Source: Candidatus Harrisonbacteria bacterium (GTDB lineage Bacteria > Patescibacteriota > Minisyncoccia > UBA6257 > 02-FULL-45-10c). From it: DNA of 43,173 nt. The stretch is from assembly GCA_016214655.1 (NCBI GenBank), contig JACROC010000001.1, positions 1-43,173 of the forward strand. The letters are read 5' to 3'. Shown here one piece after another: positions 14,275 through 43,173 of this stretch. The position numbers and the translations under genes were made by a program. The notes beneath the pieces were generated by a model. That model did not search any database, was not told the origin of the DNA, and worked only from the letters and a program-made list of their open reading frames with translations. Within the stretch, counting starts at the first letter, position 1. Each line of letters begins with the position of its first letter.

Positions 14275-14344
14275 TAAGGGTATAGGGTATAGGGTAGAGG
14301 GTTTAGTAAATTTCTAACCCCTAACCCCTAACCCCTAACCCCTA
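14275..14344 (+). repeat. 7-bp-period inverted repeat array between nusG and rplK
   Basis: The left arm (about 14277-14306) repeats GGGTATA; the right arm (about 14314-14344) repeats CCCCTAA four times. The arms are largely complementary around an AT-rich centre, TAAATTT. The sequence looks telomere-like but is internal. Confidence 0.85.
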
Positions 14345-15578: not shown

Positions 15579-16883
15579 ATGGCAATTAAGCTTCCGGTTC
15601 AGAAAATTGTTTCCGATCCGATTTTAGGACTCATTAATATTCATGGTTTTTTGCCGATGATTGATACCCAGAAATTCCAGGCTTTGGCGTTTAAGTACCA
15701 GCTTGGTTTGGCCTTTTTGCTTTTTCCTTCGGCGACTCATACGCGTAAACAGCATTGTCTGGGAGCCTTTCAGCGCACCAAGGATTTAACTCGCCGCTGG
15801 GTGGAAAGCGGCATGATTACCAAAGATCAGGCCCACACGGTCACAGCTTTCGCGCTTTATCATGATATTGGTCACGGCCCGTTTTCCCATACCGTGGAAC
15901 CGCTTTTTGAGCTTTTGCCTGGAGCCAAGAAAACCAAATTGCGCGCCGATGATGCTATGGGTATGGAGATTATAAGGGGACTTCAGAAAGAAATTGAGGC
16001 CTGCGGAGTGAACTTTGATGCTTTGCTGAAAGTTTTTAAGCACGAAGACCCATTATATTTGGCAGTGCATGATAAAAATTTAGGGATGGAAAAATTTGAT
16101 TATTTAACCCGCGATGCTTATTACACAATTTTAGAATTACCAGGAGTGGAATATTTATCCAGATATATCTATTTCGTAGATAATCAAGTAGTGGTGGATG
16201 AAAGGGTGATTGATCAGGCAAAAGCTATTCAAGATTTTTATATTAAAATGTCTAAGCACGTTTATCTGCGTAAAAAATCCGCAATTCTTCAGAGGCTGGT
16301 TCAAAAAATGGCATATGAGCTTGTGAAAGAGGGAATGAGCGTGCAGGAGATTTGGAGTCTGACCGACTTCGGACTTTTGGGAAGGTTTGAGATATCTTCC
16401 AATCCCAAGATTCAATTCTATTATAACCGTTTAATGTCCGGCGATTTTCCAAAGGCGGCAATTGATTTTAAGTATGAGCAATTTGTCCAGCTGGATGAGA
16501 AAAGGCGGGATAAATCTTTATACACCTTTGGTTTGTCGGAAAAAGTTTTAAATAAAATTGTTGCTCATGAAGAAGTTTCTAGTGTGAAATTGCTGGCGGA
16601 TTTTGAAAAAGGGGTGGCCGAATTAGTCGGTATTCCGGAAGACAGCGTAATTGTGGTGCCGCCGATGTCGCATCATCGGTTTGTGCCAGAAGATGTTAAA
16701 GTTTACGGCCGAGACGGGAATATTGTGATGCTTAGCGATTTTTATCCGCAGCACTTTGCCGCTATGGTAGAATATGGGCAATCCCATCAAATGCTTAGAA
16801 TTTGCGCTATGCCTGAATATCGGGAAAAATTAACTAAGAATGCGGAAAAGATCAAGGATTACCTTTTAGAGTTCGCCAAATAG
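15579..16883 (+). CDS. HD-domain phosphohydrolase (SAMHD1/dGTPase-like, COG1078 type)
   Basis: Encodes 434 residues. The metal-binding HD set is visible: H in SATHTRKQHCLGAF, HD in ALYHDIGHGPFSHTVE (with the extra catalytic His), and D in MEKFDYLTRDAYYT. This order and spacing fit the SAMHD1/dNTP triphosphohydrolase-like group more than Dgt itself. A dNTP or related nucleotide substrate is likely, which would fit the preceding tmk, but the substrate is not shown by sequence. No membrane segments. It ends at an inverted repeat array before gatB. Confidence 0.85.
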   Translation: MAIKLPVQKIVSDPILGLINIHGFLPMIDTQKFQALAFKYQLGLAFLLFPSATHTRKQHCLGAFQRTKDLTRRWVESGMITKDQAHTVTAFALYHDIGHGPFSHTVEPLFELLPGAKKTKLRADDAMGMEIIRGLQKEIEACGVNFDALLKVFKHEDPLYLAVHDKNLGMEKFDYLTRDAYYTILELPGVEYLSRYIYFVDNQVVVDERVIDQAKAIQDFYIKMSKHVYLRKKSAILQRLVQKMAYELVKEGMSVQEIWSLTDFGLLGRFEISSNPKIQFYYNRLMSGDFPKAAIDFKYEQFVQLDEKRRDKSLYTFGLSEKVLNKIVAHEEVSSVKLLADFEKGVAELVGIPEDSVIVVPPMSHHRFVPEDVKVYGRDGNIVMLSDFYPQHFAAMVEYGQSHQMLRICAMPEYREKLTKNAEKIKDYLLEFAK

Positions 16884-16959
16884 GGTATGGGGTATAGGGT
16901 ATAGGGTATAGATTTTTTAAAGAATTTCTAAACCCTAAACCTTCGCCCCCTAAACCCTT
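16881..16959 (+). repeat. 7-bp-period inverted repeat array between the HD gene and gatB
   Basis: The left arm (16881-16911) repeats GGGTATA and includes the HD gene's TAG stop. The right arm (about 16928-16958) has CTAAACC-type units with one interrupted copy. The arms are partly complementary around an AT-rich centre. Confidence 0.8.
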
Positions 16960-20554: not shown

Positions 20555-20703
20555 AATATCCGAAATTATGTTCCGTGCGGCAACTACGGACCCAGCCGGA
20601 GCTTGGTCTTCGCGTAAGGGAAGTCCGGCTGGGGAGGCGTAGGAGCCGCTTGTCGCCGGAGCAAGCGGACTCCGGTGCCGTCAGGAATATAATTTCGGGT
20701 ATT
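20555..20703 (+). ncRNA. structured RNA, copy A of a two-copy family
   Basis: Nested helices: a 20-bp outer stem (20555-20574 / 20684-20703, including CCGAAATTATGTTCC), GCGGCA/TGCCGT (20577-20582 / 20676-20681), CTACG/CGTAG (20584-20588 / 20638-20642), a hairpin CCCAGCCGGA/TCCGGCTGGG (20591-20600 / 20624-20633), and a hairpin CCGCTTG/CAAGCGG (20646-20652 / 20662-20668). The core GTGCGGCAACTACGGA, GAGGCGTAGG and CCGGTGCCGTCA is identical to copy B at 30139-30276, while helix sequences differ but still pair. The plus strand is favoured because both copies lie upstream of plus-strand genes; the minus strand is not excluded. It does not match a riboswitch or ribozyme I recognise. Confidence 0.8.
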
Positions 20704-20745
20704 AGCCAATTGATAATCTCCAAGATTTATTTAACAATTAAGGCA

Positions 20746-30138: not shown

Positions 30139-30276
30139 ACCTCGTTTGTATTTCGTGCGGCAACTACGGAGCCGCGATTTGCTTGGTTTCTCGAAGAGAA
30201 AAATCACGGCGAGGCGTAGGCGGCGCCGACCGCAGGAGTCGGCGAACGCCGGTGCCGTCAGAAATATAAACAAGGT
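30139..30276 (+). ncRNA. structured RNA, copy B of a two-copy family
   Basis: Same architecture as 20555-20703: outer stem of 16 positions (30139-30154 / 30261-30276, one G-T and one mismatch), GCGGCA/TGCCGT (30157-30162 / 30253-30258), CTACG/CGTAG (30164-30168 / 30215-30219), hairpin GCCGCGATT/AATCACGGC (30171-30179 / 30202-30210) and hairpin CGCCGAC/GTCGGCG (30224-30230 / 30238-30244). Both copies share GCTTGGT at the head of the first hairpin's tip and a CGC-[CA]-GGAG loop in the second. An intrinsic terminator follows about 20 nt later, so it could be an independent small RNA, the 3' end of the rnc transcript, or a leader of ftsH. Confidence 0.8.
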
Positions 30277-34683: not shown

Positions 34684-37600
34684 GTGAGTAAAAAAACCAT
34701 CAATCTTCTAGATCCAAACCACACTCGGGTATTTTCTTTACCCCGTGATCGCTTTGCGATTTTACGGGGCCTTTCTTTCCTCTCTGCCGTCACCCTAACC
34801 ACCCTCTACATCGTCTATTCTGCTTCCGGAGCTAATACGACTATCGGAAATAATATCTCCACCTCCGGAACTCTGACCGTCGGAGGTATCTCTAGATTAT
34901 CCAGCGGACTCTATGCTTCTTCTACACTCCAGGCCTCCGGAACCACAACTCTTTATGATACTCTGTCTATCGCCGGAGCTGTTTCGGCTTCCTCCACATT
35001 CCAAGTCACCGGCAATACCAGAATCTACGGCGATCTGACGGTTGACGGCACTACCAGTTTAGGAGGCATCTCTTTATCCAATCCTTCTTTCACCGGCAAC
35101 ACTTCGGTTCAACAAGATCTTTTCGTTTATGGCGGAGATATTAATCTCGGCACCGGATCGGCTACTTCAACTTTGACTTCGGCTAATGGGAAGTTAGGAG
35201 TGGGGAGTACGAGTCCATCTCAAACTCTGGCAGTGCAAGGGAATGCTCTTTTCTCCGGCAATATAACAAGTGTGGCGAATATTACTGCGACGGGAACACT
35301 CTCGCTCACCGGAACTTCCGGAACTTCTACGATTGCCAGCGGGCAAGGATTTACAATCGGTTCATCCCAATTCGTAGTCCAGCAGGGGAGCGGGAATGTG
35401 GGTATTGGAACGAGTACGCCAAGTCAGAAGTTATATGTCGAGGGCAGATCTTTTTTCAATAATAACGCCTATAACTTTATTACAGTCAATTCTCAGCTCA
35501 GTGATGCTTATTTGCGTTTGGCAGGGGGAGGCGTTGAGAAGTGGTTTATCAGAAATGATTTCGACGATAGCCATAAATTCCAAATTGGGAACGAGGCCAT
35601 GGCAACTGACAACACCGCGGCGGTGTTGACAATTTTACAAAGCGGCAACGTCGGCATCGGCACTACCACTCCATCCAAAACTTTCTCCGTCCAAGGAGAC
35701 TCTCTCTTCTCCGGTAATCTCAGTGTGGCGAATGTGACGGCTACCGGAACTCTTAACGTCACTGGACTTACTACGCTTGGGAATGCCTCCACAACTCAAA
35801 TTTCTTCAACTGGTTCTTCATATTTTGCAACAAGCGGCGGCAGCGTCGGCATCGCTTCAACTTCTCCGCTGGCCCAACTTTCTGTGGAAATGGGTACGAA
35901 TCCTTTTGCTCTTTGGGTAGGAGATAGCGGGACTTCTACTCCGGCGTTGGCAGTAAGCGGTGCGGGAAATGTCAGTATCGGAACAGTAAGTCATCCACAA
36001 AAATTAGCTGTCTACGGCGATTCAGATGGCGAGATTGGCATTGTAGTAGGCAATACTAATACCGGAGCATCTTCAGTTGCTTCTTTTGTGATGGATGGAC
36101 AAGGAAATAATTTTCGTATTAAAAACTGGGGTGACGGCACAGCTAACGCTAATCTTACTGAATTCCATTCTTCCGCCACCGGAGCCAGGTTCGCTTTTAG
36201 TGGTGGCAACGTCGGCATCGGCACCACTACTCCAAACTGGAATTTCCAGACTGCCGGCACCCGACCTTTTGCAGTTCTTTCGGATACTTCTGCCGGAATC
36301 GATGCAAAACATTGGTTTACTTCATCTCAAGGCGGTAACTTCTATGTCGGCACTTCCACTGATTCACTGAATGCCACCAGTACTTATTTGACGATTGCGA
36401 ATGGCGGGAATGTGGGGATTGGTACTACTACTCCAACCCAAAAATTTAATGTTGACGGCCCGGTCTTATTTGGAAATCAGCCTTGGCCTTCCGTATCTGC
36501 GGCGCGGACTGGGCGTATGGCGCTTACCCAGACTAGTGGCAATGCAGCTTTATTCTTTTTTGATGATACCGCGGTCGCCGCAAACAATACGTTTGGAACA
36601 ATCGCTTTTGAGGGGAGGAAAGACGATACCGGTCCAGTATATGACGTGTTTGCTCAAATTAAAGCCGCTAAAGAAAATGCTAATCAAAATGATCGTGGCG
36701 GTTATCTAAGTTTCATCACCAGTTCTAATAGCTTGGGTACACAAACTGAGCAGTTGAGGATTACTTCACTAGGATTAGTGGGCATCGGCACCACCACTCC
36801 ATCTCAAACTCTGGCAGTGCAGGGGAATGCTTTATTTTCCGGAAATCTTAGCGTGGCAAATATTACGGCGACGGGAACTTTGAATGTAACCGGCGCAACC
36901 ACCCTTTCTTCTACTCTTTCTACTGGGACTTCGACACTTAACAACCTTATTGTTACAAACACCTCTTCCTCAACCTTTGCCGGACCGATCTCTAATACTT
37001 CTGGCAATCTTATTGTTGCGCCGACTGGAACTTCTAATAATCTTTTACTTAACCCGTATGGTGGCAACGTCGGCATTGGCTCTACCACGCCAGGATTTCC
37101 TTTGAGCGTCACAAAAACCAACGGATTATCTGCATATTTTGATGGCGGAACCACTGATGCCAGTTTTTATATGAACCAAGGGTCTGTTAGTGGTCCGAGT
37201 ACGGTAGCGGGTATTCGTACTAATAGCGGCAGTCCTGCTTTTAATGCCAAAAACGGAGGCGCTATCTATTTTAACAGAGATGTTGCCTCTGCTGATGTGA
37301 TATTTCAGTATAATAGCGGAGTTAGCAATTCTCTGGTTGTTTCCGGGAGTAGCGGAAATGTCGGTATTGGGACTACTACTCCGATGAGTCTTTTTTCACT
37401 CAGTTCCTCTGAGCCTATTATTACAATCGCAGGTACGGGTGCGGCCACAGCAAAACAAATTCGTTTTGTCGGACCAGCCGGTTCTGCTACAGTTTCTAAC
37501 TGGCAAGTGGGAGCAGATGCCCAAGCTAATGATGCTTTCACCTTTACGCCATCCACTGCGGCAGGAGGATTCACCTTTTCATCTCCGGCACTGTCGATTC

Positions 37601-40600
37601 TAAATACCGGCAGCGTCGGTATTGGAACCGCTACTCCCTCTACCACTTTTGCAGTTCAAGGCAACGCCTTATTCTCCGGCAACATCTCTAGTGTGGCGAA
37701 TATCATGGCAACTGGGACTCTTACCGTAACAGGAACATCAGGGACTTCCACCATAGGTTCAATTACTATTGGCCCGAACGGAAAAATCGGAATTGGCACC
37801 ACTACCCCCAATATCGCCAATTTTGAAGTGGCGACAAGGACGATTGCTTTCAATTCCGGAGCTGACGGCTCGCTTGGCCCGTGGGCAACGACTACTAGTA
37901 TGCAGTCTGGCGTGACTTTACATACATCAGTTGCTTCTAATGGTTATATTTATGTAATGGGCGGCTTGATTTCGGGTTGCAATGCAAATGGCTGTAATGA
38001 AACTTTTTATACTAAAGTAAATAGCGATGGCTCTCTCGGTTCTTGGGCAACCAGCACTAATCTTATACCCGGTGTTCACTTCCAGCATTCTTCGGTGACT
38101 GCTAATGGCTATATTTATATACTCGGAGGATATGACGGTCAGAGCGCTGTTTATTATGCCAAAATAAATAGAGATGGTGATACCAGCGCTTGGTCAACAA
38201 ATATAAATCCATTGCCTTATGGTATTTGGCGAGCGTCAGCAGCTACGGCTAATGGATATATTTATGTAATTGGGGGTACACCTGATACTGGTGGTTCGAC
38301 TACTACCGTTAGTTATGCAAAATTAAATAGTGATGGTTCTACGAGTTCCTGGGCTTCAACAACAGCCTTAACTGTTGCGTCAATAGAGCATTCTTCAGTC
38401 GCTGCCAATGGTTATGTTTATGTTCTTGGCGATGGTACTAATAAAGTTTATTACGCCAAAATAAATAGCGATGGTACTCTTAACAACTGGCGGCAAAATT
38501 CTAATAATCTCCCAACTGCTACATCTCTTACTTCTGCAGTAGTTGCCAGTGGTTATATTTATGTTGTTGGCGGCTACAGTACCAGCGGAGTTTATTATGC
38601 CAAACTGAATAGCGATGGTTCTATTGGTCCATGGTCTACTACAAATATGCCGGCTTATAGAAATGGCCATACATCAGTTGTAGTTAATGGTTACGTTTAT
38701 GTGATTGGCGGCAAAGAATATCCAGGTAGCACAAACATGGCAACGGTTTCTTATGCTTCCACTGCCCGCACTCAAATAGCTGGGAATCTTGATTTAATTG
38801 GTCTTGCCAGTTCTACGGTTTCCGATTTAGCAGGTGACAACGGTAGCGTCGGCGGTTCAATCTTCGCCGGAAATATTTTCTCTCAAAATAGATTGGAAGT
38901 TGGAGGCAACTCATCCCTTTGGGGTGGACTGAATGTAAATGGATTATTCTCGTTAACAGCTTCTTCTTCCGCCCCACAAAATCAATCTATCTTTTCTATC
39001 CAAAACGCCACCGGCACTGCTCCGTTGTTTACAGTGCAATATGACGGAAAAGTTGGAATTGGGACATCATCTTTGACGGCTGTCTTGGGACTTCAAAAAC
39101 CATCAACTGGCTCTATATTTAATATTTCAAATAATCTCGCCGGTGATTTATTAACGGTAAATAATAGTGGACAACTGGGATTGGGCACTACTTCTCCATC
39201 TCAAACTCTGGCAGTTCAAGGCAATGCCTTATTCTCCGGCAACATTTCTAGCGTGGCGAACATTACGGCGACGGGGACAGCAACCATCGGCGGGTCAACA
39301 AACAGCAACCAGCTGACTATTAGAGAACATGCTAATCAAGCTCAAGCCACCGCTCCCTTTGTGATTGTTGGCCGTGATGGCTCAACTGCGTTAGAAATAA
39401 GAGTCGGAACTTCATCTCAATCCAATACTCTCATCGGTCTTGATGCTGGAAAATTAATTACTGTAGGAGGTACTGCAAATACCGCATTAGGGCTTTCTGC
39501 GCTTGAAGATCTTACTACCGGCGATAGCAATGTTGCAGTGGGAAATAGTGCCTTGGCTAATATTGCCACTACAAATATGAATACTGCTATTGGTTCTACT
39601 GCCTTGTATCAAACCACTTCGGGCTATCAAAATACAGCTGTAGGCGCAGAGGCTTCTTATTATAATATTTCAGGTATTAACAATGTAGCTGTTGGCCAAG
39701 GGGCTCTTACTAATAGTAGAACTGGTAATAATAATGTGGCTATTGGAGAGGCTGTTCTCAATTATAATGGTTCAGCAACTAATACTACCGCGGTTGGTTT
39801 TCAGGCAGGCTTCGGCGTTGCCGGAACCAGCAACCAAAACAATTCTCTTTTTGGATATTCGGCTGGATATGGACTTTCTACCGGCTCAAATAACCTTCTT
39901 TTTGGCTACCAAGCTGGAGATGCTCTTACCACTGGCTCAAACAATATAATAGTAGGCTACGACATAGACGCCCCGTCAAACACTGGAAGCAACCAGCTCT
40001 CCATCGGCAACCTTCTTTTTGGCACTGGCATAGACGGAACAGGAACTACTATTAGTAGTGGGAATATCGGTATCGGCACAACAACACCAAGTACCAAATT
40101 TGCAGTTCAAGGTAATGCTTTGTTCTCCGGAAATCTTAGTTTAGCTAATTTAGCGGCAACTGGAAGTATTAGTATAACTGCCAACACTAGCGGTATTCAG
40201 ACAAATTCATTATTTATTATTCAAAACGCCACTGGCACTGCGCCTATATTTACCGCACTCTATAACGGCAATATCGGCATCGGCACCTCCACTCCAAATG
40301 CCCAACTGAATATTTTTGCTTCTTCTACAGTTAACACAACAGCTTTGAAAGTAGATACAGATGGAGCGCTTGGGCCTTTTGCGAGTAGCTCTGTTTCATT
40401 GCCAGGTGTTAGAAAATATCATGGTACCGCCGCTGCTAATGGTTATGTGTATGTAGTTGGAGGTGGAAATGCAAGCAATGCCACCCAATCCTCTGTTTAT
40501 TATTCCAAGCTTAATAGTGACGGTTCCATTAATTCCTGGCAAACTAACATGAACTCTCTGCCGGCTGGTGGGGCATTTGCTCCGAGCTCTTTTGTTGCCA

Positions 40601-43173
40601 ATGGCTATATATATTCAATCGGAGGCGGCGCAAGTATTAATGATGACTCGGTAACAACACAAGTTTATTATGCCAAGCTTAATAAAGATGGTTCAACTGG
40701 TTCTTGGAAAATTAATGCCAATACTTTACCGGTTGCCGGCAGATTTGAGCATTCTACCGTTGCTGCTAATGGTTATGTATATGTAATGGGCGGCTGCCAA
40801 GGAAATTGCGGTTCAGCTACTTCATCAGTTGTTTATGCTAAATTAAATGGCGATGGTTCTATCGGCATATGGGCGAGTACGACAGCTATGGCAGCGCCTA
40901 GATTGGGCGCCGCTTCTGTTGTTGCTAACGGTTATGTGTATGTAATAAGTGGTTATAGCGGTGGCAGCAAAACAGATGTCTATTATGCCAAAATAAATAA
41001 TGATGGTTCTCTTGGAAATTGGTCAATTAATTCTTATAGTTTACCAACGTCTGGCTCATATGGGGAGGGCGTTGGTGCCACTGTTGTTAATGGTTATGTA
41101 TATGTAGGAGGAGGGGGCGTGGCAGTAAACGCACCAATATCTTATGCCAAGCTTAATAGCGATGGCTCTACCGGTCCGTGGCGGACTACAAGTATCTTGC
41201 CGTCAGCTAACGCCGCATATGGTGGATTTGTTGGCATTGTCACTGTTAATGGTTATATATACGCAATTGGCCAGTACACTAATCTAGCAACTTTTTACGC
41301 CTCAACTGCCCGCACTCAAATAGCGGGGAATCTTGATTTGATTGGACTTGCTAGTAGCACACTTTCAGATTTTGGAGGCGATAACGGCAGCGTCGGCGGT
41401 TCTATATTTGCCGGAGACATATTCAGCGCTGGAAAATTAACAGTGATGAATAATACCCAATTAATGGGCGGCTTAGCTGTTAATGATTTATTTTCCTTAA
41501 CCGCTTCTACCAGCGCCCCTCAAGATTCTTCCATCTTCAGCATCCAAAACGCTACTTCATCATCGCCGTTGTTTACAGTTCAATACAACGGTAACATCGG
41601 CATCGGAACTTCTACTCCGAATGCTCAACTGAATATTTTTGCTTCTGCCACTACCAGCGCTTTGAATATCACTACAAACGGCGCGCTTAGCGCTTGGGCA
41701 ACAAGCACTAACTTCATTACCGAGAGGAGGATACAGTCTGGCGTTGCCGCTAATGGATATATCTATACGATCGGCGGAAGGAGTACCTCCAATAATGTTA
41801 TTAAATCTATTGAATATTCCAAAATAAATAGTGACGGTTCGCCCGGCGTTTGGGCAACCAGCACCAATCCTTTGCCGCTTAATACAGAACAGCAAACTTC
41901 ACATGTTGCTAATGGCTATCTCTATGCGATTGGCGGTGAAACCACTATAGGCGGCACTGCCAGAAATACTGTTTATTACGCCAAGCTTCGCGGCGATGGC
42001 ACTAATGATTCTTGGCAAACTGATTATTTGCCGATTGGCCGTAAACTTCACAGTTCGGCAGTGGCGAACGGGTTTTTATATGTTTTTGGCGGAATTGATG
42101 AGAGCGGCAGCGCCACTTCCTCGGTTATATTTGCAAGATTAAACAGCGACGGCTCTGTTGGTTCTTGGGCAAGCACAACCGCGCTGGCTGTGGCAGATTA
42201 TCAGTTGGCTGCCGTTGTTGCTAATGGCTATATCTACACTTTTGCCGGCGATACTTCTCCTACCACTAAAACTTATTACGCAAGAATTAATAATGATGGC
42301 ACGCTTGGCAATTGGACAGCCGGTACTACGATTACCGGAACGCATGGCGACTTGGGTCAGGATGCGGTAGTTCTTAATGGCTATGTTTATTTAATCGGCG
42401 GAGGACCATCGGCTAACTCTAAAGATGTTTCTTATGCAAAGTTAAACAGCGATGGTTCTATCGGGACTTGGAAAGATGAAGCTACGTTTCCTGAAAACAT
42501 TGGCAATGCAATAACGGTCACAACTAATGGCTATATTTACATAATTGGAGGAAGTCTTAGTAACGGCGCTTTGCCAAGCAGTAAAGTTTTCTATACTTCT
42601 GCCGCCAGAACCACAATCTCCGGGTCTTTGGATTTGCTCAAAAATACGAATTTGCCGCTTACCGGTTGGGCAGGAGACAATGGCAGTGTGGGCGGCGCGA
42701 TTTATGCTGGCAGCATATTTTCTCAAAACAATTTAGAAGTTTCTGGCAACACTCAATTATGGAATGGCCTTGGCGTAAATGGAATTTTCTCTTTATCCGC
42801 CTCAACCAGCGCCCCTCAAGATTCTTCCATCTTCAGCATCCAAAACGCCACCGGCACTGCTCCGTTGTTTACAGTGCAATATGACGGAAAAGTTGGAATT
42901 GGGACATCATCTTTGACGGCTGTCTTGGGACTTCAAAAACCATCAACTGGCTCTTTATTTAATATTTCAAATAATCTCGCCGGTGATTTATTAACGGTAA
43001 ATAATAGTGGACAACTGGGATTGGGCACTACTTCTCCATCTCAAACTCTGGCAGTTCAAGGCAATGCCTTATTCTCCGGAGATTTGACGCTAGCTAATTT
43101 GACTGCGACTGGAACTCTTACTTTATCTGGCACTTCTGGAACTTCTACTATCGCCAGCGGGCAAGGATTCACA
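34684..43173 (+). CDS. giant fibre-like surface protein with tail-fibre repeats, three kelch propellers and a YadA-type head, 3'-truncated
   Basis: One frame is open from GTG 34684 to the window end, 2830 codons, with no stop in the long stretches I translated; an in-frame TAA at 34672 rules out an earlier start. Residues about 24-46 are a hydrophobic export signal or anchor (FAILRGLSFLSAVTLTTLYI). The rest is rich in Thr, Ser, Gly and Asn. At least 19 copies of a GNVGIGTTTPSQ-like motif occur, often followed by LAVQGNALFSGN and VANITATGTL; in phage and bacterial fibres such motifs form trimeric beta-structure. Kelch-like propellers lie at about 1060-1359, 1890-2209 and 2333-2639, and a YadA-head-like segment at 1595-1769. 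Its role is probably attachment to a host cell or surface. The C-terminal end, possibly an intramolecular chaperone, is beyond the window. Confidence 0.88.
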   Translation, partial: MSKKTINLLDPNHTRVFSLPRDRFAILRGLSFLSAVTLTTLYIVYSASGANTTIGNNISTSGTLTVGGISRLSSGLYASSTLQASGTTTLYDTLSIAGAVSASSTFQVTGNTRIYGDLTVDGTTSLGGISLSNPSFTGNTSVQQDLFVYGGDINLGTGSATSTLTSANGKLGVGSTSPSQTLAVQGNALFSGNITSVANITATGTLSLTGTSGTSTIASGQGFTIGSSQFVVQQGSGNVGIGTSTPSQKLYVEGRSFFNNNAYNFITVNSQLSDAYLRLAGGGVEKWFIRNDFDDSHKFQIGNEAMATDNTAAVLTILQSGNVGIGTTTPSKTFSVQGDSLFSGNLSVANVTATGTLNVTGLTTLGNASTTQISSTGSSYFATSGGSVGIASTSPLAQLSVEMGTNPFALWVGDSGTSTPALAVSGAGNVSIGTVSHPQKLAVYGDSDGEIGIVVGNTNTGASSVASFVMDGQGNNFRIKNWGDGTANANLTEFHSSATGARFAFSGGNVGIGTTTPNWNFQTAGTRPFAVLSDTSAGIDAKHWFTSSQGGNFYVGTSTDSLNATSTYLTIANGGNVGIGTTTPTQKFNVDGPVLFGNQPWPSVSAARTGRMALTQTSGNAALFFFDDTAVAANNTFGTIAFEGRKDDTGPVYDVFAQIKAAKENANQNDRGGYLSFITSSNSLGTQTEQLRITSLGLVGIGTTTPSQTLAVQGNALFSGNLSVANITATGTLNVTGATTLSSTLSTGTSTLNNLIVTNTSSSTFAGPISNTSGNLIVAPTGTSNNLLLNPYGGNVGIGSTTPGFPLSVTKTNGLSAYFDGGTTDASFYMNQGSVSGPSTVAGIRTNSGSPAFNAKNGGAIYFNRDVASADVIFQYNSGVSNSLVVSGSSGNVGIGTTTPMSLFSLSSSEPIITIAGTGAATAKQIRFVGPAGSATVSNWQVGADAQANDAFTFTPSTAAGGFTFSSPALSILNTGSVGIGTATPSTTFAVQGNALFSGNISSVANIMATGTLTVTGTSGTSTIGSITIGPNGKIGIGTTTPNIANFEVATRTIAFNSGADGSLGPWATTTSMQSGVTLHTSVASNGYIYVMGGLISGCNANGCNETFYTKVNSDGSLGSWATSTNLIPGVHFQHSSVTANGYIYILGGYDGQSAVYYAKINRDGDTSAWSTNINPLPYGIWRASAATANGYIYVIGGTPDTGGSTTTVSYAKLNSDGSTSSWASTTALTVASIEHSSVAANGYVYVLGDGTNKVYYAKINSDGTLNNWRQNSNNLPTATSLTSAVVASGYIYVVGGYSTSGVYYAKLNSDGSIGPWSTTNMPAYRNGHTSVVVNGYVYVIGGKEYPGSTNMATVSYASTARTQIAGNLDLIGLASSTVSDLAGDNGSVGGSIFAGNIFSQNRLEVGGNSSLWGGLNVNGLFSLTASSSAPQNQSIFSIQNATGTAPLFTVQYDGKVGIGTSSLTAVLGLQKPSTGSIFNISNNLAGDLLTVNNSGQLGLGTTSPSQTLAVQGNALFSGNISSVANITATGTATIGGSTNSNQLTIREHANQAQATAPFVIVGRDGSTALEIRVGTSSQSNTLIGLDAGKLITVGGTANTALGLSALEDLTTGDSNVAVGNSALANIATTNMNTAIGSTALYQTTSGYQNTAVGAEASYYNISGINNVAVGQGALTNSRTGNNNVAIGEAVLNYNGSATNTTAVGFQAGFGVAGTSNQNNSLFGYSAGYGLSTGSNNLLFGYQAGDALTTGSNNIIVGYDIDAPSNTGSNQLSIGNLLFGTGIDGTGTTISSGNIGIGTTTPSTKFAVQGNALFSGNLSLANLAATGSISITANTSGIQTNSLFIIQNATGTAPIFTALYNGNIGIGTSTPNAQLNIFASSTVNTTALKVDTDGALGPFASSSVSLPGVRKYHGTAAANGYVYVVGGGNASNATQSSVYYSKLNSDGSINSWQTNMNSLPAGGAFAPSSFVANGYIYSIGGGASINDDSVTTQVYYAKLNKDGSTGSWKINANTLPVAGRFEHSTVAANGYVYVMGGCQGNCGSATSSVVYAKLNGDGSIGIWASTTAMAAPRLGAASVVANGYVYVISGYSGGSKTDVYYAKINNDGSLGNWSINSYSLPTSGSYGEGVGATVVNGYVYVGGGGVAVNAPISYAKLNSDGSTGPWRTTSILPSANAAYGGFVGIVTVNGYIYAIGQYTNLATFYASTARTQIAGNLDLIGLASSTLSDFGGDNGSVGGSIFAGDIFSAGKLTVMNNTQLMGGLAVNDLFSLTASTSAPQDSSIFSIQNATSSSPLFTVQYNGNIGIGTSTPNAQLNIFASATTSALNITTNGALSAWATSTNFITERRIQSGVAANGYIYTIGGRSTSNNVIKSIEYSKINSDGSPGVWATSTNPLPLNTEQQTSHVANGYLYAIGGETTIGGTARNTVYYAKLRGDGTNDSWQTDYLPIGRKLHSSAVANGFLYVFGGIDESGSATSSVIFARLNSDGSVGSWASTTALAVADYQLAAVVANGYIYTFAGDTSPTTKTYYARINNDGTLGNWTAGTTITGTHGDLGQDAVVLNGYVYLIGGGPSANSKDVSYAKLNSDGSIGTWKDEATFPENIGNAITVTTNGYIYIIGGSLSNGALPSSKVFYTSAARTTISGSLDLLKNTNLPLTGWAGDNGSVGGAIYAGSIFSQNNLEVSGNTQLWNGLGVNGIFSLSASTSAPQDSSIFSIQNATGTAPLFTVQYDGKVGIGTSSLTAVLGLQKPSTGSLFNISNNLAGDLLTVNNSGQLGLGTTSPSQTLAVQGNALFSGDLTLANLTATGTLTLSGTSGTSTIASGQGFT
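37861..38760 (+). repeat. first six-blade kelch-like propeller
   Basis: Six blades of about 50 residues, each with NGYIYVIGG (variants NGYIYVMGG, NGYIYILGG, NGYVYVLGD, SGYIYVVGG), then YYAKINSDGS and a Trp before the next blade. Confidence 0.8.
39001..39239 (+). repeat. long direct repeat, copy 1
   Basis: 239 bases identical to 42841-43079 except one A/T difference at 39115 (42955). It encodes the linker after a propeller (QNATGTAPLFTVQYDGKVGI onward). Confidence 0.95.
39466..39990 (+). repeat. YadA-head-like repeats
   Basis: About ten units of roughly 14-17 residues of the type GDSNVAVGNSALANI, GYQNTAVGAEASYY, GINNVAVGQGALTN, GNNNVAIGEAVL. This N-x-A-x-G-x-x-A pattern is the left-handed beta-roll of trimeric autotransporter heads. 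Confidence 0.85.
40351..41310 (+). repeat. second six-blade kelch-like propeller
   Basis: Six blades with NGYVYVVGG, NGYIYSIGG, NGYVYVMGG, NGYVYVISG, NGYVYVGGG and NGYIYAIGQ, each followed by YYAKLNSDGS-like strands. More divergent at the last blade. Confidence 0.8.
41680..42600 (+). repeat. third six-blade kelch-like propeller
   Basis: Six blades with NGYIYTIGG, NGYLYAIGG, NGFLYVFGG, NGYIYTFAG, NGYVYLIGG and NGYIYIIGG. It is joined to the second propeller by a short connector holding one GNIGIGTSTPNAQLNIFAS unit. Confidence 0.8.
42841..43079 (+). repeat. long direct repeat, copy 2
   Basis: Second copy of 39001-39239 at an offset of exactly 3840 bases (1280 codons), so it is in frame. Flanking sequence diverges sharply on both sides. 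Confidence 0.95.

Follow-up and report, generated by a model that had tools for sequence, protein, structure and literature searches.

A family of dispersed intergenic elements in Patescibacteria with a drifting sequence and a retained three-way junction fold

The analyzed window comprises the whole of a 43,173-nucleotide stretch of Candidatus Harrisonbacteria DNA (contig JACROC010000001.1 of assembly GCA_016214655.1, positions 1 to 43,173, forward strand), in which two intergenic segments, designated copies A and B, contain the same order of paired regions (P1–P5) and conserved loops. The parts of the two copies are as follows.

~20555-20705, + strand: copy A, whole element including the closing stem of ~20 bp, between thrS (- strand) and a hypothetical gene (+ strand)
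20560-20574, + strand: copy A, P1 5' arm, pairing with 20684-20698
20578-20582, + strand: copy A, P2 5' arm CGGCA, pairing with TGCCG at 20676-20680
20585-20590, + strand: copy A, P3 5' arm TACG (pairing with CGTA at 20638-20641) and the conserved GA of the P3/P4 internal loop
20591-20633, + strand: copy A, P4 hairpin, CCCAGCCGGA/TCCGGCTGGG
20601-20607, + strand: copy A, conserved 7-nt P4 bulge GCTTGGT
20608-20623, + strand: copy A, variable apical hairpin P4b
20634-20643, + strand: copy A, conserved GAGGCGTAGG, comprising the P4/P3 internal loop, the P3 3' arm, and the first P5 pairs
20644-20671, + strand: copy A, P5 hairpin with a conserved bulged A in its 3' arm
20654-20660, + strand: copy A, conserved P5 loop CGCCGGA
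20672-20698, + strand: copy A, CCGG, P2 3' arm, TCA internal loop, and P1 3' arm (20684-20698)
30139-30276, + strand: copy B, whole element, between rnc (+ strand) and ftsH (+ strand)
30140-30154, + strand: copy B, P1 5' arm, pairing with 30261-30275
30171-30210, + strand: copy B, P4 hairpin, GCCGCGATTT/AAATCACGGC, with GCTTGGT at 30181-30187
30221-30248, + strand: copy B, P5 hairpin with loop CGCAGGA (30231-30237)

Elsewhere in the window, two intergenic telomere-like tracts (AGGGTATAGGGTATAGGG ... TTTCTAACCCCTAACCCC) lie 2.6 kb apart at 14277-14343 and 16882-16958, and a very long open frame of at least 2830 amino acids (34684-43173), rich in internal direct repeats, runs off the end of the contig.

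The fold of the element is a three-way junction formed by P2, P3, and P5. The closing stem P1 (~19–20 bp), whose sequence is barely conserved, is separated from P2 by a GTR/NYA internal loop; in copy A, ~4 extra pairs are found further out, past one mismatch. P3 stacks on P4 via a conserved GA/GAG internal loop. P4 is always 10 bp long and carries the conserved bulge below the variable P4b, while P5 has a CGCNGGA loop, the bulged A, and arms whose length does not vary. The minimum free energy z-scores relative to dinucleotide shuffles were -8.2 for copy A and -5.3 for copy B. A reading made from the sequence alone had proposed that conserved blocks occur in both copies in a fixed order, and that, despite sequence differences between the copies, pairing persists in the outer stem and in the two hairpins; both claims held, with a single C–A mismatch in P4 of copy B (GCCGCGATTT/AAATCACGGC). 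In two copies of this genome (L059 and L065), the P4b loop contains an extra hairpin followed by TTTTT, resembling an intrinsic terminator.

Copies A and B are members of a large, undescribed family of short dispersed intergenic elements in Patescibacteria. A search with an exact pattern gave a third copy in the same genome, as well as five copies in G006 and a single one in G001. With a covariance model, 17 copies were found in the present genome (0.91 Mb, 98% complete), 31 in G006 (the highest count), and 8–22 in each of five congeners belonging to another family. At least one copy is present in 102 of the 244 genomes of the order, more than half of which thus lack the element at the threshold applied; the number of copies in related genomes ranges from 0 to 31, and in a phylum-wide draw the model detected the element sporadically, in 23 of 380 genomes. 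The element measures ~130–175 bp in the present genome and up to ~290 bp in copies with an outer domain. When 84,980 named species were scanned with an exact pattern, the only matches came from two MAGs of Patescibacteria, Candidatus Harrisonbacteria JACPTS01 and Candidatus Paceibacter DYGE01; from copy coordinates and flanking sequence, G006 is inferred to be the Harrisonbacteria MAG. No Rfam 15 family matched the element at gathering or E-value thresholds, the best scores on the copies being far below threshold, and the sole Rfam match inside the window is a tRNA. No account of the element was found in the titles and abstracts of the open-access literature searched (subscription literature was not covered). 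The sequence-only reading had counted two copies of an unrecognized class and had suggested a covariance-model search of this and other genomes. The number failed, the absence of a recognizable class held, and the search, once run, yielded many homologues with covariation.

In an alignment of nine copies, which was ungapped after the apical P4b loop had been trimmed to equal length and for which structure was not used in fitting, 36 of the 49 pairs were changed on both sides, with 98.4% of the cells paired. None of 500 shuffles matched this alignment on any measure, and the pairing collapsed once the partners were slid by one column. In the order-wide alignment, which, unlike that of the nine copies, was fitted to the covariance model, all 49 base pairs vary with compensation, and 733 cells were changed on both sides versus 206 in shuffles. 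The family therefore satisfies the criterion for a structured RNA, namely compensatory base pairs in excess of shuffled controls. The core that had been regarded as invariant is only partly so, because P2 and P3 also vary order-wide, and, although P2 seems constant in the copies found first, P2 variants (GAGAA/TTCTC and GAGCA/TGCTC) occur even inside the present genome. Thus, the sequence of the element drifts freely and its folded shape is retained; its function can at most be inferred.

The strand on which selection acts was identified from stem defects. On the sense strand, G–U pairs outnumber A–C pairs by 90 to 22 in the present genome and G006 (p=6e-11), by 79 to 22 across the order, and by 177 to 89 in the genus. 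Selection acting alike on the two DNA strands, or simple copying of one arm onto the other, would give equal numbers; the G–U excess therefore shows that selection acts on the sense-strand fold, and that this strand acts as an RNA is the simplest inference. Order-wide homologues, compensated pairs, and this strand-specific tolerance of G–U altogether support the selected RNA-type fold that had been claimed for the two copies. Upstream of the copies, promoters are not enriched, and downstream there is no consistent terminator, so that transcription remains inferred and unproven; a promoter or terminator belonging to the element was accordingly rejected.

A DNA-level structure between genes (a cruciform, an insulator, a bidirectional terminator, or a fork-associated site), in which pairing would be kept by template-switch homogenization of the arms or because the hairpin itself is useful, is an unlikely alternative. 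In its favor, the element is intergenic and palindromic and occurs in either orientation, and what occupies related sites can be the complete element, just a hairpin, or some other palindromic element. Also, orientation follows GC skew at 105 of 153 loci (p=5e-6), with the sense strand preferring the C-rich (lagging) strand in G006 and the genus, though not in the present genome. On the other hand, G–U far above A–C on the sense strand is not expected from homogenization or from selection on double strands, the asymmetric bulge, loops, and bulged A are conserved, and the T-run terminators of genes stand separately beside several copies. Moreover, the lagging-strand template would expose the opposite strand, and single-stranded DNA at the fork is therefore a poor match to the G–U signal.

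The copies sit tightly between ordinary housekeeping genes in all four flank arrangements. No gene family recurs next to them, the flanks repeating just housekeeping genes and open reading frames within the element itself. Between co-directional genes, 67 copies are antisense and 29 sense (p=1e-4); the corresponding numbers are 18 and 5 in G006 alone, versus 4 and 6 in the present genome. The pooled p-values for orientation and skew are optimistic because congeners have sites in common. The antisense bias may have arisen through selection purging sense copies, which in an operon would put the fold into the mRNA, or insertion may be coupled to fork direction. A cis-acting riboswitch or leader of downstream genes, to which copy B (in sense orientation, with ftsH starting ~100 nt downstream) and the minority of copies that are sense and 5' of a gene could be ascribed, is very unlikely and is largely refuted by these context data, because all orientations occur among the copies between housekeeping genes, antisense being the most common, and the downstream genes are unrelated.

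A site between mraY and NADH dehydrogenase is common to genera G000 and G006, and is the sole G000–G006 site seen with both flanks conserved; the two elements have the same orientation, with all stems changed. Conservation of the position upstream of ftsH between G000 and G006 is not claimed, since the ftsH genes there are paralogous. Separately, back-to-back divergent pairs of copies ~23–35 bp apart are kept between species (G157 L160, G158 L167, G158 L141, and G157 L130 / G154 L132).

Turnover of the copies is evident from presence and absence, inversion, replacement, and module exchange. In one genus, most sites are common to the genomes, yet the copies diverge far more than their flanks, orthologous elements being 40–60% identical at many conserved sites. 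Sites filled in one species are empty in a congener; empty sites alone do not separate gain from loss. Two empty sites aligned in detail showed neither a target-site duplication nor a leftover hairpin, indicating that P1 comes and goes with the element; P1 as a pre-existing target hairpin is thus unsupported. Between G154 (L128) and G157 (L135), a 94%-identical unit is inverted inside intact flanks, the inverted segment of ~280 bp being bordered by imperfect inverted repeats. A site in G157 and G158 has flanks of 98.8–99.5% identity, with elements that are 61% identical and in opposite orientation. Some other inverted pairs are less certain, since their elements have low identity or the copies stand back to back. 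A full core on P1 occupies the L136 site in G158, where the otherwise near-identical G157 has a plain hairpin, CCAGCCAGTCCATGGACTGGCTGG; both are within the same outer structure. Copy A and the copy at C3:72762 have an identical entire P1 and different P4 and P5, and the distances for P1, P4, and P5 are nearly uncorrelated (Mantel rho, 0.13, 0.18, and 0.09). As a separate observation, a 1.2-kb flank plus element is 100% identical between G154 L147 and G157 L162, from species that differ by ~15% elsewhere; it resembles the terminal part of a 23S rRNA gene, and conservation, transfer, or a binning error are all possible.

Neither a transposase nor an autonomous element or other partner was found linked to the copies. 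Genes for Y1 transposase are weakly associated with the element (odds ratio 2.1, p=0.01, uncorrected for phylogeny) and are absent from G006 and G158, which have 31 and 22 copies, respectively. Reverse transcriptase (RVT_1) shows no association, being present in 41 of 102 carriers and 65 of 142 non-carriers. Based on co-occurrence, both enzymes were rejected as obligate partners. A search of viral contigs gave no exact match and one match to a looser pattern, unconfirmed by the model, and blastn gave no match in plasmids or phages.

Multiple dispersed copies that are present in some genomes and absent from their close relatives meet the criterion for a MITE or other non-autonomous mobile repeat, and it is likely that the element is, or has been, mobile in a non-autonomous manner. 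Most paralogues are only 70–91% alike, so that transposition was not recent. The best reading of the data is a family of non-autonomous, mobile-like structured-RNA elements recognized in trans via their conserved loops, although we would give it no better than equal chances of being correct. According to this reading, a trans-acting factor would recognize the folded strand, most likely an RNA transcript, by its conserved loops, and the copies would have spread among intergenic sites as a non-autonomous mobile or selfish repeat; parts may later have been exchanged between copies by ordinary recombination across the conserved blocks and palindromic arms. Transcription, the trans partner, and the function are all inferred. 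The many sites conserved in the genus are also compatible with a host function, and count against the mobile reading.

The main rival is a multi-copy family of host small RNAs, that is, stand-alone genes for protein-binding RNAs acting in trans as a regulator, a sponge, or a component of a ribonucleoprotein, and spread by ordinary duplication and gene conversion. This remains possible, as the sense-strand fold and loops are strictly kept, many genus-wide sites persist despite the low identity of orthologous elements, and the mraY / NADH dehydrogenase site is occupied in two genera. Against it stand the variation in copy number, the empty sites, the inversions and replacements, the absence of a promoter signal, and the lack of the element, at the threshold applied, in over half the order's genomes.

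The sequence-only reading had offered three functional options, among which a small mobile RNA is best supported because of the copy number, turnover, inversion, and module mixing. A regulator acting in cis does not fit, with neither gene context nor orientation fixed, and no match to known ribozyme families was found in Rfam for the third option, a ribozyme. The objection that it had raised against itself, that the element might be only a transposon's palindrome at the DNA level, has some relevance, since the element behaves like a mobile repeat; a palindrome alone is countered by the G–U versus A–C asymmetry and the conserved bulges and loops, which show that the folded sense strand is selected. 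A bolder reading, which is possible but less likely than not, would regard the family as a new class of small mobile RNA of Patescibacteria without a protein, spreading in trans among intergenic sites via its folded RNA, and evolving by swaps of whole hairpins, with nothing conserved beyond a few bases in the loops and the three-dimensional fold.

The element belongs loosely to a known kind, dispersed intergenic structured repeats; stem-loop sequence families have been surveyed (PMC2267715). Like ERIC/IRU, REP/BIME, Correia, RUP, and MITEs, it is short, non-coding, intergenic, multi-copy, and hairpin-forming, with no internal gene. Copies of ERIC/IRU, REP/BIME, Correia, and RUP resemble each other over their whole length. 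In contrast to ERIC, REP, Correia, and RUP, the stems of the present element turn over almost base by base with compensation, it folds into a three-way junction whose internal loops are conserved, and its copies swap hairpin modules. It is set apart by how far its stems turn over with compensation, by its branched fold, and by the swapping of hairpins. REP/REPIN sequences, moved by RAYT, are likewise structured, non-autonomous, and intergenic, and RAYT-like Y1 genes occur in some of these genomes; however, the tie to Y1 genes is weak and G006 has none, and the element does not qualify as a REP/RAYT system. Integron attC sites resemble it in that structure outlasts sequence, folding is strand-specific, and orientation is related to replication, whereas the element shows no attC core motifs or cassette genes, its fold is branched, and its selected strand is not the one bared on the lagging-strand template. 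Group II introns and retrons are also mobile structured RNAs; copies of the element often start P2 with GTGCG, and some genomes have reverse transcriptases. Without an Rfam match, an encoded protein, or an association with reverse transcriptase, however, the element does not qualify as a retroelement, DGRs included. It shares with orphan structured RNA classes (e.g. PMC2864571) a covarying fold, an unknown function, and the lack of an Rfam match, but differs from them in being multi-copy and orientation-free and in turning over like a mobile repeat.

A tiny, uncultured, host-dependent phylum that is usually called streamlined thus bears up to 31 structured RNA-like copies per genome. For the RNA field, the family provides a large, easily searchable class with strong covariation support and no assigned function, and for genome biology, a repeat family that conserves shape rather than sequence while whole hairpins swap.

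Several features outside the core were observed around subsets of copies. A conserved tail, CGAGTRRAA..TTATCCACA, lies just 3' of the P1 3' arm at L053, L114, L013, and L120; it matches the DnaA-box consensus exactly in two copies, and the tail-bearing subset reads CGAG at both ends. In the present genome, L014 and L056 have flanks in common beyond P1, with an outer inverted repeat, AAATACTTTTCYGCCAT / ATGGCGAAAAAGTATTT, ~45 nt out, and CCCACYGCCAGCCCGAAT on their 3' side, which recurs beside L058. A second, larger structured repeat was found in the genus of G112, with 13 distinct instances among the loci examined (e.g. L136:1436-1722, L220 ~840-1010, and L223 ~1200-1580). It is composed of a conserved GAGAGCGAGCG, a covarying hairpin with the loop TCGCYGGG, and A.AGCGTGTTTG, together with AAACCGTCTCG. 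In some copies it surrounds the core, and in others a plain hairpin takes the place of the core; its loop resembles the CGCNGG of the P5 loop.
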